This document shows positions 1,927 through 8,168 of a stretch of 33,815 nucleotides of DNA, piece after piece. Under the pieces are notes generated by a model, which did not search any database, was not told where the DNA came from, and saw nothing but the letters and a program-made list of their open reading frames with translations. The stretch is from the NCBI GenBank assembly GCA_020351995.1, contig CP070674.1, forward strand, positions 2,393,008-2,426,822. Reading direction: 5' to 3'. The position numbers and the translations under genes are program-made. The stretch's first letter is position 1. Every line of letters starts with the position of its first letter. Source of the stretch: Candidatus Zixiibacteriota bacterium. Its GTDB lineage: Bacteria; Zixibacteria; MSB-5A5; GN15; FEB-12.

Positions 1927-1963
1927 TGTTCGCTGGCGAACAGCTCTTGTTCGGGTATGAACA
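1927..1963. promoter_or_regulatory. Tandem TGTTC-N6-GAACA operator pair (putative enhancer)
   Basis: Two 16-bp dyads of identical format are present: TGTTCGCTGGCGAACA (1927-1942) and TGTTCGGGTATGAACA (1948-1963). Their starts are exactly 21 bp apart, two helical turns, so dimers would sit on the same DNA face. They lie 54-90 bp upstream of the -24 element at 2018. Paired dyads on one face upstream of a sigma-54 promoter are the usual arrangement for an enhancer-binding protein. That the protein encoded at 4501-5922 binds here is inference. Confidence 0.65.
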
Positions 1964-2016
1964 CTTTACTATCTTGGGCGTACAATAAGCATCGCATAAA
2001 CAGTAACTTAAGGACA

Positions 2017-2032
2017 TGGCACCCCGTTTGCT
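2017..2032 (+). promoter_or_regulatory. Sigma-54 (-24/-12) promoter of the permease gene
   Basis: TGGCAC (2017-2022), 5 nt, then TTGCT (2028-2032). The invariant GG (2018-2019) and GC (2030-2031) are separated by exactly 10 bp, as RpoN promoters require. Transcription would begin near 2043, giving a short leader with AAGGAG at 2058-2063 and the inferred start at 2070. The good match, the spacing and the upstream dyad pair support one another. Confidence 0.7.
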
Positions 2033-2069
2033 GACCTAAAGCACGTCCAGTAGCCACAAGGAGAATGCG

Positions 2070-4430
2070 ATCCTTAAACACTATCTGAAAACCTCCCTGA
2101 GGAATATCACCAGGCAGAGGGGATATTCACTTCTCAACGTGCTTGGCCTGGCTATCGGGATAACCTGCCTGGGCCTGGCTATCCGTTATACCCAGCATGA
2201 ATTCAGTTTTGATAGATTTCATAAGGACGCAGACAGGGTTTACAGGGTATGCAGCAAAAGCTCGGGCGCGGCCACGCCAGGCGAGCTGGCACCGACGATT
2301 CTGGAAAGATCTCCGGCAGTAGAGTCGGCCACGCGCCTTCAGTATGGAAGCTTCGACCAGAACCGGGTACTATTTCACTACCGCGACAAATCTCTTTACA
2401 GCAGGGGCTACTACGCTGACGAGCACTTTTTCGAGATATTCCCATTTCCGTTCGTCCGGGGAGATCCCGGCAAAGCCCTGGCCGAACCGAACAGCATCGT
2501 TGTAACCGAGGACTTCTCGCGCAGGTATTTTGGCGATGAAAACCCCATCGGTGAAACCATCAACTTCGAAAACAAACATGATTTGACGGTGGTCGGGATC
2601 ATTGAGAACGTCCCCTCCAACTCACACCTTCAGTTTGACTTCCTTGTATCGTTTTCAACTTATGCCACGACAACATCCGGCCAGTCCTACTCGCGCTGCT
2701 GGGCCTGCTGTTGTTTCCTGACCTACGTTAAGCTAAATGAGAACGCGGCTGTCCGCGGAGTTGAAGACCAGCTCGACGCCTTAGTGATGGAAAAGACCAA
2801 TATTGCCTACACGTGGTTCCTTCAGCCTTTAGAGGATATCCGGTTATTCTCTGCCCTCAGCCATGAGCCAGGCACGCTCGCCGTGAGTGACATTTACTAT
2901 GTATACCTTGCGCTCTCGATTGCGGTGCTAATCCTGATTCTCGGATGCCTGAATTATATAAGCATCACCACGGCCCGAGCCGCCTCACGCGCCAGCGAAA
3001 TTGGCGTTCGCAAAGTGGTTGGCGCCAGGCGAAAAGATCTCATCGCTCAGCACATGGTAGAATCCTTGTTGGTGACGCTATTCGCTCTGCTGCTGTCTCT
3101 GATACTCATTGAGCTCCTGATACCGATGATAAACTCTTTTGCCCGCCTCGGAATCGGAAGCGAGTACCTGGGCAATTTCGCTTTTATGTCCTTCATGATA
3201 CTTCTGTGCGTTCTGGTGAGTCTGATTGCCGGCGGCTACCCGGCGCTGGTCCTGTCATCAATCAGGCCCTTGAGGGTGATCAGCAAGCTCTGGCACGCCG
3301 GCCGGGAGGGCGTTCGCCTGCGCCGGCTATTTGTAATCATACAGTTCGGGATGGCTATCTGTTTGCTGACTATCTCGCTGATAATTGATTCACAACTGAA
3401 TTATGTCGGTAGCGAGGATATAGGCTACGACAGGGAAAATGTCGTGGTGTTGAAACTAAAGGGTGATGACTTCGAGAACAACCGGCAAAACATCAAAAAC
3501 GAAATACTCGGGCACTCCAGAGTTATCAGTGCAACCTATTCGTCCCATCTCCCGTGCGCAATCAAGAGTTCAACTGAAGCCAGGCTGGCCGACAACAACG
3601 GCGACACGACTTACCTGATCATTCACTGTTGCGACGTAGATGAAACCTTCGCGGACGTCTATGATCTCGAATTCGTGAGCGGCCGGAATTTCTCGCAGGA
3701 CTTCAACGACACCTGGGAATCCTCGGTGATCCTTAACGAGGCCGCCGTAAAAGTAATAGACTGGGAAAATCGGGAAAACAAACGCTACACCATGTGGGGC
3801 AATATCGATGCCGAGGTTGTCGGCGTAGTGAAGGATTTCAATTTTCTATCCCTGCATAATAACATTGCACCTCTGGTTTTGTTGCGCGGCGAGGGTTCAT
3901 ATCTTTCGGTCAAAATTCAACCCGATGACATGCTAGGCACTATCGGGTATATGGACAAGGTCGTGAGCAAATTTATCCCCGACTATCCCTTCGAATACAA
4001 AATGTATGAAGATCACTATCAGGCGGCGTACACGACGGAGAATAATCTCAGCCTGGCCTTTAACGTTTTTGCGGGGATCGCCATATTCGTGGCCTGTCTG
4101 GGGCTGGTCGGGTTGTCAGCATATTCAACTGCGCAGAAATCGAAAGAAATTGCCATCCGCAAGATTCTCGGGGCGTCCGCCGCTGACAACATGTTGCTGC
4201 TCACCCGGGAATTCTTGTTACTGGTCGTGATAGCGAATGTGCTGGCCTATCCTGTCGCGTACTACATCATGAATCGGTGGCTGGAGAATTTCGTTTACCG
4301 TATCGATATCGGGATATCTTCCTTTATTTCGGCAGGTCTCGCGGCACTTATCGTTGCTTTGCTGACGGTCGGCTATCAGGCCGTCAAGGCCGCGTTCGCC
4401 AACCCTATTGATGGGATCAGGTACGAGTAA
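2070..4430 (+). CDS. FtsX/MacB-like ABC transporter permease
   Basis: The product is about 786 residues in the two-module layout of MacB/FtsX-type permeases: TM helix at about 18-40, a MacB-like periplasmic core to about 270, an FtsX domain with three TM helices (about 275-400), another TM helix (about 420-440), a second extracytoplasmic domain, and a C-terminal FtsX domain with three helices (about 680-780). The repeated motif EIGVRKVVGA / EIAIRKILGA marks the two FtsX units. Such permeases act with an ATPase to move substrates or transmit force across the envelope. No ATPase gene is adjacent. The family normally begins MLKxYLK.LRN; here that stretch is read as (ATC)-LKHYLKTSLRN, with AAGGAG 6 nt upstream and no ATG, GTG or TTG in frame until GTG 2139. 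I place the start at ATC 2070, a rare codon or a sequence error. An unusual RCWACCC cluster lies in the first periplasmic domain (near 2695-2715). Transcription is predicted to be sigma-54 dependent. Confidence 0.85.
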   Translation: MLKHYLKTSLRNITRQRGYSLLNVLGLAIGITCLGLAIRYTQHEFSFDRFHKDADRVYRVCSKSSGAATPGELAPTILERSPAVESATRLQYGSFDQNRVLFHYRDKSLYSRGYYADEHFFEIFPFPFVRGDPGKALAEPNSIVVTEDFSRRYFGDENPIGETINFENKHDLTVVGIIENVPSNSHLQFDFLVSFSTYATTTSGQSYSRCWACCCFLTYVKLNENAAVRGVEDQLDALVMEKTNIAYTWFLQPLEDIRLFSALSHEPGTLAVSDIYYVYLALSIAVLILILGCLNYISITTARAASRASEIGVRKVVGARRKDLIAQHMVESLLVTLFALLLSLILIELLIPMINSFARLGIGSEYLGNFAFMSFMILLCVLVSLIAGGYPALVLSSIRPLRVISKLWHAGREGVRLRRLFVIIQFGMAICLLTISLIIDSQLNYVGSEDIGYDRENVVVLKLKGDDFENNRQNIKNEILGHSRVISATYSSHLPCAIKSSTEARLADNNGDTTYLIIHCCDVDETFADVYDLEFVSGRNFSQDFNDTWESSVILNEAAVKVIDWENRENKRYTMWGNIDAEVVGVVKDFNFLSLHNNIAPLVLLRGEGSYLSVKIQPDDMLGTIGYMDKVVSKFIPDYPFEYKMYEDHYQAAYTTENNLSLAFNVFAGIAIFVACLGLVGLSAYSTAQKSKEIAIRKILGASAADNMLLLTREFLLLVVIANVLAYPVAYYIMNRWLENFVYRIDIGISSFISAGLAALIVALLTVGYQAVKAAFANPIDGIRYE

Positions 4431-4500: not shown

Positions 4501-5922
4501 TCAACTGAGGTCATACTTCTTCAGCTTCCGGTATAGCGTCCGTTCCCCGATACCGAGCCGTCGCGCGGCCTCCTTGCGGTTGCCTTTGGTTTCATCGAGC
4601 ACCTGCTCAATCATGAGCTTTTCCATCTGCTCCATGCTCATCCCTTTAGTGGCCTCGGCGGTGTCGGACGGATACTCTTCCGGCGGCGTTTCCGACGGCA
4701 GGTGCGATGTAATCAAATCACGAAGCATTCGAATTTCGTTCCCCAGCGAGAGAATAGCATGATAGATAAGCTCTTGCCCGGCCTGCTCGACCGTCTTGCC
4801 CGTGGAAACGGGAAGGTTCAGAGCGGACGTATGCTGTTCCTCGATAAACCGCTCTACGTCCTCAACCTCTACCATCCCCTTCGGCTTGAGGGCAGCCATT
4901 CGGTCTGCGAAGTTTTTCAACTGGCGTACATTGCCCGGCCAGTCATATTTCATCAAAAGCTCCACCGCCGAGTCAGAATAAGTAAGGCCGGGATGACTGC
5001 GCGAAAAATGCTGAAGAAGTGGATAGATGTCATTGGCTCGCTCAAATAATGGCGGCAGGACAATCTTAACCACACCGATGCGGAAATATAAATCCTCCCG
5101 GAAAGCCCGTTCGCTGATAGCTTCGGTCAGGTCACGATTCGTGGCCGACACCACCCGCACATTGGCTCGCTGGGCGACCGACGACCCGACTGGATAATAA
5201 GTGCCGTCTTCGAGCACTCGCAACAGTTTCACCTGCATATCCGGTTTGGTCTCTCCTATTTCATCGAGAAATATCGTGCCACTGTCGGCCTTGTGAAAAA
5301 GACCGTCCCGCTTCGACACTGAGCCGGTAAAGGCTCCTTTCTCGTGACCGAAAAGCTCCGACTCTAAAACGCCTTCGGCTATTGCGCCGCAATTGATTGC
5401 TACAAACGGTTTCCCGGTTCGCTCGGAATTATCATGAATAGCCCGCGCGACCAGCTCCTTACCTGACCCCGATGGCCCAACGATCATGACCGGCACTTCA
5501 GTGGGTGCAATCCGGTGGATGGTTTCGGCGACAATCTTCATCTTGGTCGAACGACCGACGATTTTGAATTCGGCCAACAGCTCCTTCTGCCGCAGAATCT
5601 GTTTTACTTTCTTGGTGATCCCCTCCTGCCCCAGATCGCTGGATATATGGCCGTCGATGAAATCATCATCCGGTTCCATATCGTGACCGTCGGTTACCAC
5701 CCGCCAGATTTCAGTCAGACCGTTATAGCGACGGATACGAGCCGCCACGGCGTATTTGAGCGCCATCCGGGAATCATCGACCAGCACGATATCGATCAGA
5801 CTCTCTTTAACCGTCTGATAAAGCTCTGAAACCTGATTGACCACAATACCGATTTCCTGCCAGCGAATCTCACGGCTGCTCTCAGACGATGGATCGACCA
5901 AAATGACTACTCTGTTTTTCAT
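4501..5922 (-). CDS. Sigma-54-dependent transcriptional activator (NtrC/AtoC-type)
   Basis: The protein has 473 residues. Residues 121-360 form a complete AAA+ sigma-54 interaction domain: Walker A GPSGSGK (149-155), Walker B GTIFLDEI (215-222) and sensor II DWPGNVRQL (327-335). The sigma-54 contact loop reads GAFTGS (196-201) rather than the common GAFTGA. A Fis-type helix-turn-helix is at the C-terminus (about 436-470, GNRKEAARRLGI...RTLYRKLKKY). The N-terminal 110 residues look like a receiver fold but lack the normal acidic pair after strand 1 and a clear phospho-aspartate/lysine set, so a pseudo-receiver that does not use standard phosphorylation is inferred. The gene starts 22 bp after the rnr stop, suggesting cotranscription. 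The permease beyond its 3' end carries a sigma-54 promoter and is a plausible target. Confidence 0.93.
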   Translation of the reverse strand: MKNRVVILVDPSSESSREIRWQEIGIVVNQVSELYQTVKESLIDIVLVDDSRMALKYAVAARIRRYNGLTEIWRVVTDGHDMEPDDDFIDGHISSDLGQEGITKKVKQILRQKELLAEFKIVGRSTKMKIVAETIHRIAPTEVPVMIVGPSGSGKELVARAIHDNSERTGKPFVAINCGAIAEGVLESELFGHEKGAFTGSVSKRDGLFHKADSGTIFLDEIGETKPDMQVKLLRVLEDGTYYPVGSSVAQRANVRVVSATNRDLTEAISERAFREDLYFRIGVVKIVLPPLFERANDIYPLLQHFSRSHPGLTYSDSAVELLMKYDWPGNVRQLKNFADRMAALKPKGMVEVEDVERFIEEQHTSALNLPVSTGKTVEQAGQELIYHAILSLGNEIRMLRDLITSHLPSETPPEEYPSDTAEATKGMSMEQMEKLMIEQVLDETKGNRKEAARRLGIGERTLYRKLKKYDLS

Positions 5923-5944: not shown

Positions 5945-8125
5945 TTATCGTTTCTTCTTTTTCCTCTTATCGCGCCGGACAGGTTTCCCTTTGCCTTTCT
6001 TCGGCGGCGCCTCCTTACGTGGTGGGCTGACGAGATAAAGATCCATCTCGTTGGCCACGGTATCCACGCGTAAGATGCCCACTTTCACTTTCCCGCCTAA
6101 CTGAAAGACGCGTCCCGTGCGACTCCCCACCATTCGGTACCGCTTCGCGTCAAACCTGTAATAGTCGTCATCTATCGACGACATACGCACCATCCCCTCC
6201 ACACCCATGTTATCCAGCCTGACAAAAAAGCCATGCGGCATCACGCCCGATATAACCCCCGGAAAATGGTCGCCCAGATGACGTCCCATGTATGACAGTT
6301 GCTTGACCTTGATAGCGTCACGCTCGGCCGACTCGGCCACCCGCTCGGTGTCAGAACAATGACGCCCAACACTGTCGATAAGCGTTGTCGCGCGGCGGGC
6401 AAACGACGCCGGGTAACGGCCGTTTTTCATCTTTCGCAAAAGACGATGAACAATCAAGTCCGGGTAGCGGCGAATAGGCGAGGTGAAATGCGTGTAATGA
6501 TGAAAGGCCAGGCCGAAATGGCCGATATTCTGCCGCTGATAAACAGCCTTTTTCATCGAGCGTAACATCAACTCGTTGATGAAATCTTCTTCGGGGACAT
6601 CTTTCACTTTTTCGAGGAATTTCGCGAATGCGATCGGACGCATATTGGGCGACACCGGGAAAGTATATCCCAGCCGCTGCATCAAACTCGAAAACTCCTG
6701 AATTTTCTCTAGGTCGGGTTTGTCGTGCACCCGGTACAGAAAAGCCTGTCCGGCCCGGAACACCTCGAGCGCCACCGCCTTGTTCACCGCCAGCATGAAT
6801 TCTTCGACCAGACGATGCGACTCCAGCCTAACTTTGTGCCCCAGCTCAAGCACCTCACCTTTCTTATTCAAAATGATTTTGGATTCGGGGAGGTCAAAGT
6901 CGAGCGAGCCATCGGCGAAGCGCCGCTTATTCAAAAGCAATGCCAGGTGCCGGGCAATCCGAAGATTATCGGCCACTTTTTTGAGCTTGGGCGTGACCAC
7001 GCCGGTATCGAAAAATTCCTGAACCTCTTCGTAGGCCAGCTTCGCCCGCGACTTAATAACCGTATCGGCGAAAAACCATTGAAGAGCCTTGCCGGTTTTG
7101 TCAAAGTCTATAATAGCGGAATGGGCCAGCCGCCTGCGATTCACTTTCAACGAACAGACATCATTGGAGAGCACTTCCGGAAGCATGGGAATAACCATCC
7201 CCGGCAGATACACCGAGTTCCCCCGCCGGAACGCTTCCTTATCGAGGGCGGTGCCGTCATCGACAAAGTATGACACATCGGCGATATGCACCGACAGGCG
7301 AAAGCCATCGACTGTCTTCTCTACCGAAATAGCGTCATCATGGTCTTTGGCATCGGCCGGGTCGATCGTATAGACACACTGCCTGGTAAGGTCCCTCCGT
7401 CTGTTAAGCTCTTCGTCGGTAAGTTTGGCCGAAGCAATCTCCGCCTGCGAGAGAACATCATCCGGGAATTCCTCGGGGAGATCATAGCTCTTTATCACCG
7501 TGAGCATATCCACGCCGGGTTTGCCGGGGAAACCGATACGCTCGGTAATTTTGCCTTCGGGATTGAGATGCGGGTCATCCCAGTGGGTCAGCACCACCAC
7601 GACTTTCTCACCATCCTGCGCCGAGAGCGAATCCTTGGTGGGGATATACATATCACGATGGAGCCGTTTGCTGTCGGGCACGACAAAATTGAAATTGCGT
7701 CCTTTGTGGAAGACACCCACGATATTGCGTTTGGCTCGCTCGACGATTTTTATCACGGCGCCGGTGGAACGATCCACAATGCGCCCGGTGAGACGCACCA
7801 TGACGGTGTCACCGTCGAGCGCGGTATGCAGCCGTACTTCGGGGATATAAATATCTTCCTCTTCACCTTCGACAATCAGGTATCCAACCCCGCTTCTGGT
7901 GATGGAGATTTTACCCACGCGGATATCCATTTCGACCGCGAGGCCGATTCGACCGCGCTTGAGCCGGACCAGTTCACCGGCGTCGATGAGGTCTTTGACG
8001 GCCTGCCGGAAATAGCGGTACTCGGCGTTGGGTATAGCCAGGGCTTTGGCTAACTCCTTGATTTTCATGGGGTGGGCCGATTTTTCGCGGATAAAATCGA
8101 TGATTTTTTTGGCATCTTGTTTCAT
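5945..8125 (-). CDS. rnr: Ribonuclease R
   Basis: This is a processive 3'-5' exoribonuclease that degrades structured RNA, with a role in RNA quality control. From the chosen ATG (8125) the product is about 726 residues in RNase R order: winged-helix HTH (about 1-65), cold-shock OB domains (66-235), RNB catalytic domain (about 245-570), S1 domain (about 620-700) and a lysine-rich tail. The catalytic acidic set is intact at D255, D261, D263 and D264 (IDPADAKDHDDAIS). An in-frame TTG at 8149 would add eight residues (MEGRYFGH), but MKQDAKKIIDFI is the natural domain start. Neither start has an ideal Shine-Dalgarno. The regulator gene follows after 22 bp on the same strand. Confidence 0.95.
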   Translation of the reverse strand: MKQDAKKIIDFIREKSAHPMKIKELAKALAIPNAEYRYFRQAVKDLIDAGELVRLKRGRIGLAVEMDIRVGKISITRSGVGYLIVEGEEEDIYIPEVRLHTALDGDTVMVRLTGRIVDRSTGAVIKIVERAKRNIVGVFHKGRNFNFVVPDSKRLHRDMYIPTKDSLSAQDGEKVVVVLTHWDDPHLNPEGKITERIGFPGKPGVDMLTVIKSYDLPEEFPDDVLSQAEIASAKLTDEELNRRRDLTRQCVYTIDPADAKDHDDAISVEKTVDGFRLSVHIADVSYFVDDGTALDKEAFRRGNSVYLPGMVIPMLPEVLSNDVCSLKVNRRRLAHSAIIDFDKTGKALQWFFADTVIKSRAKLAYEEVQEFFDTGVVTPKLKKVADNLRIARHLALLLNKRRFADGSLDFDLPESKIILNKKGEVLELGHKVRLESHRLVEEFMLAVNKAVALEVFRAGQAFLYRVHDKPDLEKIQEFSSLMQRLGYTFPVSPNMRPIAFAKFLEKVKDVPEEDFINELMLRSMKKAVYQRQNIGHFGLAFHHYTHFTSPIRRYPDLIVHRLLRKMKNGRYPASFARRATTLIDSVGRHCSDTERVAESAERDAIKVKQLSYMGRHLGDHFPGVISGVMPHGFFVRLDNMGVEGMVRMSSIDDDYYRFDAKRYRMVGSRTGRVFQLGGKVKVGILRVDTVANEMDLYLVSPPRKEAPPKKGKGKPVRRDKRKKKKR

Positions 8126-8168
8126 ATGGCCAAAATATCGGCCTTCCAACGCCTCAAGTCAAGCAATT

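Follow-up and report, generated by a model that had tools for sequence, protein, structure and literature searches.

Two-component sigma-54 regulons of the NtrC, AtoC and ZraR type unite a response regulator of REC-AAA+-Fis HTH architecture, an adjacent kinase, paired palindromic upstream sites and a -24/-12 promoter. One dimer of an NtrC-type activator occupies each dyad, dyads situated two helical turns apart nucleate the AAA+ oligomer, and a loop contacts sigma-54; by the spacing rule of sigma-54 promoters, transcription begins some 12 nt downstream of the GC in the -12 element. On the side of the targets considered here, sigma-54 promoter enrichment at FtsX-like permeases of COG0577 was reported in 2025 and called first evidence (PMC12316311). 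This link is a statistical one and concerns the same permease class in Bacteroidia, Opitutia and Gammaproteobacteria; the sections of that paper considered here do not mention Zixibacteria and name no operator or activator for COG0577 permeases, and the main text contains no match for palindrome or UAS. It was the only work in the open-licence literature found to touch this target class, and no earlier description of the operator or of the response regulator presented below was found there; the operator, the regulator assignment and the design based on scattered paralogues appear to be new within that literature. An operator and a predicted regulator are now assigned to a large permease group, for which the literature searched had provided just statistical sigma-54 enrichment.

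The window analyzed in this work, a stretch of 33,815 nucleotides from the genome of a Candidatus Zixiibacteriota bacterium, contains, before an FtsX/MacB-type permease, a complete control region for sigma-54 with a pair of upstream sites, in agreement with the first-pass annotation. Two dyads of the form TGTTC-N6-GAACA, regarded as putative upstream activating sites 1 (TGTTCGCTGGCGAACA, 1927–1942) and 2 (TGTTCGGGTATGAACA, 1948–1963), are located on the forward strand (family consensus TGTnCG-N4-CGnACA), their starts being 21 bp, that is two helical turns, apart. A sigma-54 -24/-12 element with the GG-N10-GC spacing (ATGGCACCCCGTTTGCT, 2016–2032, forward strand; GG at 2018–2019, GC at 2030–2031) follows 54 bp beyond the second dyad and 89 bp past the start of the first one. 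It is succeeded on the same strand by a transcription start predicted at 2043 from the distance of ca. 12 nt past the GC, and by a sequence match to the Shine-Dalgarno motif AAGGAG (2058–2063) in the permease leader. The genome encodes RpoN (PF04552 match, E 1e-58). No further TGTTC-N6-GAACA matches occur in the window, and shuffled sequences contained 0.04 matches on average and never two; base composition predicts about 3 single dyads per 3.6 Mb and about 3e-6 pairs with the fixed spacing. The genome scan for dyad pairs 21 bp apart, proposed together with the original claim, returned 10 dyads and one exact pair, that of the window. The dyad pair with the sigma-54 promoter before the window permease is real and did not arise by chance. 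The eight other single matches were rejected as regulon members: most of them reside inside long open frames, and none was matched by the control-region model described below.

The gene downstream (2070–4430, forward strand) encodes a duplicated ABC permease of the MacB/FtsX type without its own ATPase. Its family assignment proved correct, with a MacB_PCD domain and two FtsX stretches recognized (MacB_PCD and FtsX scores of 106 and 83 bits, exceeding the gathering score), but its start is problematic, as no ATG, GTG or TTG is in frame near 2070. The start codon is either the ATC at 2070–2072, which occupies the position of ATG in the paralogues and is located 6 nt past AAGGAG, or the next in-frame GTG at 2139; the ATC may be a rare start codon, a mutation or a sequencing error. 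Ahead of the permease, an ATG in another frame (2065) begins a stretch of 7 codons. Thirteen long paralogues of this permease are encoded in the genome (the window's copy being included in the regulon counts), and those outside the central operon introduced below have no related ATPase nearby, except for a single copy with 29% identity, located ca. 5 kb off on the other strand. With its duplicated FtsX permease, many paralogues per genome and no adjacent ATPase, this set resembles the acidobacterial duplicated orphan permeases (ADOP, TIGR03434), yet membership of the window permease in this family was rejected (246 bits vs the cut-off of 622). The best NCBIfam relatives of the adaptor and the ATPase are DarC and DarD of the darobactin exporter DarBCD, and DarB is the second-best one of the window permease; however, the scores of adaptor, ATPase and permease are all far under the equivalog cut-offs (for DarB, NF038008, 157 bits vs 700, and this assignment was rejected as well).

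The whole-genome search with the sequence model of the control region revealed exactly seven sites in the 3.6-Mb genome, scoring 45.9–60.7 bits, while the next match, at 20.5 bits, covered the 3' half of the model only, where the sigma-54 element sits. Six of the seven sites, the window's included, precede the paralogous MacB/FtsX-type permeases, and the seventh one, at 2810499, precedes an HlyD-ATPase-permease-permease-ATPase-permease operon (the central operon); within the genome, the targets of the element are confined to this permease family, that is to six permease units and the central operon. Upstream of the five other paralogues (L012, L013, L014, L016 and L017), a degenerate form of the 37-bp dyad pair was found with the -24/-12 element at a distance of 88–92 bp, counted from where site 1 starts, and the same range holds for all six other sites of the genome. 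Altogether, 10 of the 13 permease genes stand behind the element: five are single genes, the window's among them, three belong to the central operon and two form the tandem pair L013/L020; the six scattered transcription units encode 7 of the 13 permeases. On Markov-shuffled sequence, the composite site score gave one match at the lowest threshold in 0.9 Mb. The first-pass annotation regarded a lack of conservation of the dyads and the -24/-12 element as a refutation of its claim; both are conserved at these sites as well as in related genomes (see below). Partial matches to the model at G000:C1:681050, 2949190 and 362306 comprise its sigma-54 half only and are candidates for unrelated sigma-54 promoters.

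Just beyond the permease and convergent to it, a gene for an enhancer-binding protein (EBP; 4501–5922, reverse strand; AAA+ with a GAFTGS loop and Fis-type HTH) is indeed present. Its nature and its position directly past the permease would fit the earlier idea that it is the cognate activator and that both genes constitute a self-contained regulator-target pair, but distribution and synteny do not support such a pair. The EBP is near-universal in the order (54 of 61 genomes, and 37 of 37 high-quality ones), most of its carriers possess neither the permease family nor the operator, and its presence is not correlated with that of the permeases (p = 0.33). Its conserved neighbour is RNase R (5945–8149 in the window, reverse strand; of interest for context only), which adjoins it in 28 of 30 loci examined, whereas the permease does so in the source genome only and was found within ~1.5 kb of the EBP in none of the 29 loci of relatives. 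Across phyla, the operator accompanies another regulator. The GAFTGS loop is kept in nearly all relatives examined, and a Pfam receiver domain is absent from the protein. The EBP was rejected as the permease activator on distribution and synteny; the operator tracks the response regulator encoded at 2808897–2810273 instead, and we consider a local regulator-target pair very improbable. On present evidence, this EBP belongs to the core genes, is linked to RNase R and stays outside the system; in the present case, genomic adjacency misassigned the regulator.

The response regulator (G000:C1:2808897–2810273, 458 aa) is encoded 416 kb from the window, divergently from the central operon, and is of the NtrC type, with REC (PF00072), Sigma54_activat (PF00158) and Fis-type HTH_8 (PF02954) domains. 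A gene for a histidine kinase with two predicted transmembrane helices adjoins it, and the closest named relative of the regulator comes from Zixibacteriota. The locus shares with the NtrC, AtoC and ZraR systems all of the traits listed at the outset, and differs from them in the loop motif (GSFTDA here rather than GAFTGA), in the operator TGTnCG-N4-CGnACA and in the targets, which are a paralogous permease family; the protein scores well below the cut-offs of the NCBIfam models of NtrC, AtoC, ZraR and the PEP-CTERM regulator. The loop reads GAFTDA in the other orthologues, FTDA being invariant across the ten, and GAFTDA is listed among the functional variants of GAFTGA, compatible with activation (PMC4641369).

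Co-occurrence of the regulator, the operator and the permeases was analyzed in a sample of 61 genomes, comprising the source genome and 60 relatives. Orthologues of the response regulator were found in 10 of them, and the divergent promoter region of all ten contains a dyad pair with a sigma-54-like element. This regulator, with the operator in its divergent promoter in all ten carrier genomes, is the likeliest activator. Another of the ~20 full EBPs of the genome, possessing a similar Fis-type HTH, might act in its place or as a second activator, and EBPs with overlapping motifs have a precedent in DVU0110 and DVUA0057 (PMC4641369); but this constancy of the operator at the regulator gene, and the whole-genome search, which found no full site beside any EBP other than the central response regulator, make such an arrangement improbable. 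To avoid circularity, a second model (R2) was built from the regulator promoter regions of the nine other genomes, with the source genome excluded. It recovered all seven source-genome sites at ranks 1–6 and 8, the sole interloper being a partial match; the window site was rank 8 of 14 (E 0.003). The relatives have 23 full-length sites distant from the regulator, and 22 of these are followed, 145–353 bp downstream, by a permease of this family (one of these permeases, L125, was assigned by its N-terminal residues ahead of masked bases). L127 (G030:C101:12464–12573) is a full operator/sigma-54 site before a gene for a lipoprotein-like protein, not a permease.

All 10 genomes with the regulator also possess the permease family, vs 2 of 51 without it (Fisher p = 7e-10; such p-values overstate independence, as the sampled genomes are related, yet even inside the genus the distribution is patchy). 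Of the two exceptions, G022 has the site and the permeases with no regulator orthologue detected in an assembly that is 81% complete and consists of 580 contigs. In G052 and G055, partial sites precede HlyD-ATPase operons, and a 43%-identical regulator is encoded on the same contig. Several members (L063, L059 and L060) have a degenerate second site. Comparison of the same-genus genomes G001 and G003 with G000 and G002 showed the regulator, the operators and the 13 permeases to be either all present or all absent, a pattern suggestive of joint gain or loss of the whole set despite the scattered position of the genes.

Across phyla, an alignment of the regulators retrieved homologues with 58–70% identity, mostly from Bacteroidota; other records are labelled as Zixibacteriota, KSB1, Latescibacterota, Acidobacteriota/Aminicenantes, Calditrichia, Ignavibacteria, Neomarinimicrobiota and Cloacimonadota. 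An element score of at least 20 was reached in 65 of 79 upstream regions of the regulator, compared with 1 of 790 shuffles; all 80 loci have a histidine kinase gene next to that of the regulator, and in about 70% of the loci with full flanks, genes for HlyD and an ATPase lie divergently from it. Dyads by themselves have a generic operator form, and could be viewed as sites of a repressor or of another palindrome-binding factor, the sigma-54 element near them being incidental. This is hardly credible, since the distance from the dyads to the -24/-12 element is fixed within the source genome and falls into clusters of 86–91 and 100–103 bp across phyla, and since dyads and -24/-12 element are inherited jointly beside a sigma-54 activator. 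The spacing clusters, a third one being 114–116 bp, are not whole helical turns apart.

Considering these data, we assume, with a probability of roughly 85%, that the seven promoters represent a two-component sigma-54 regulon in which the response regulator 2808897–2810273 is the activator and the duplicated permeases are the targets. The membrane histidine kinase would phosphorylate the adjoining response regulator, which in the phosphorylated state would bind both TGTnCG-N4-CGnACA sites on the same face of the helix and then oligomerise. The bound regulator could contact sigma-54 RNA polymerase at the -24/-12 element ~90 bp away, and in this manner would jointly switch on the divergent HlyD-ATPase-permease operon and the six scattered units, with a presumable role in export or envelope defence. 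It is plausible that the scattered permeases use the ATPase of the central operon. A tentative and rather doubtful extension is that one envelope-sensing two-component system commands a modular exporter, the ATPase/HlyD set of the central operon being common to many co-induced, scattered orphan permeases; if true, this would imply interchangeable permease subunits, with an exporter family assembled on one signal via a cross-phylum operator. From the sequence signature, regulon members can be predicted across whole genomes of several phyla, many of which are uncultured; since the regulator and, mostly, the element also occur in cultured Bacteroidota (Algoriphagus, Labilibaculum, Marivirga and others), the prediction is open to bench testing.

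Searched with a model of their own version of the element, eight Bacteroidales genomes gave 4–10 sites each. Apart from those at the operon of the regulator, the sites stand before genes for permeases, TolC-type outer membrane channels (five), an S46 peptidase and small proteins that are secreted or unknown; this range of genes suggests a regulon for export or envelope defence. The Bacteroidales loci with TolC, S46 dipeptidyl-peptidase and ~102-residue proteins as targets are L298, L299, L302, L307, L317, L309, L296, L304, L308 and L311. The one ~102-residue protein tested, L296, gave no Pfam match; these proteins recur behind the Bacteroidales element and begin with a sequence similar to MVVDLKANELVLKAG.
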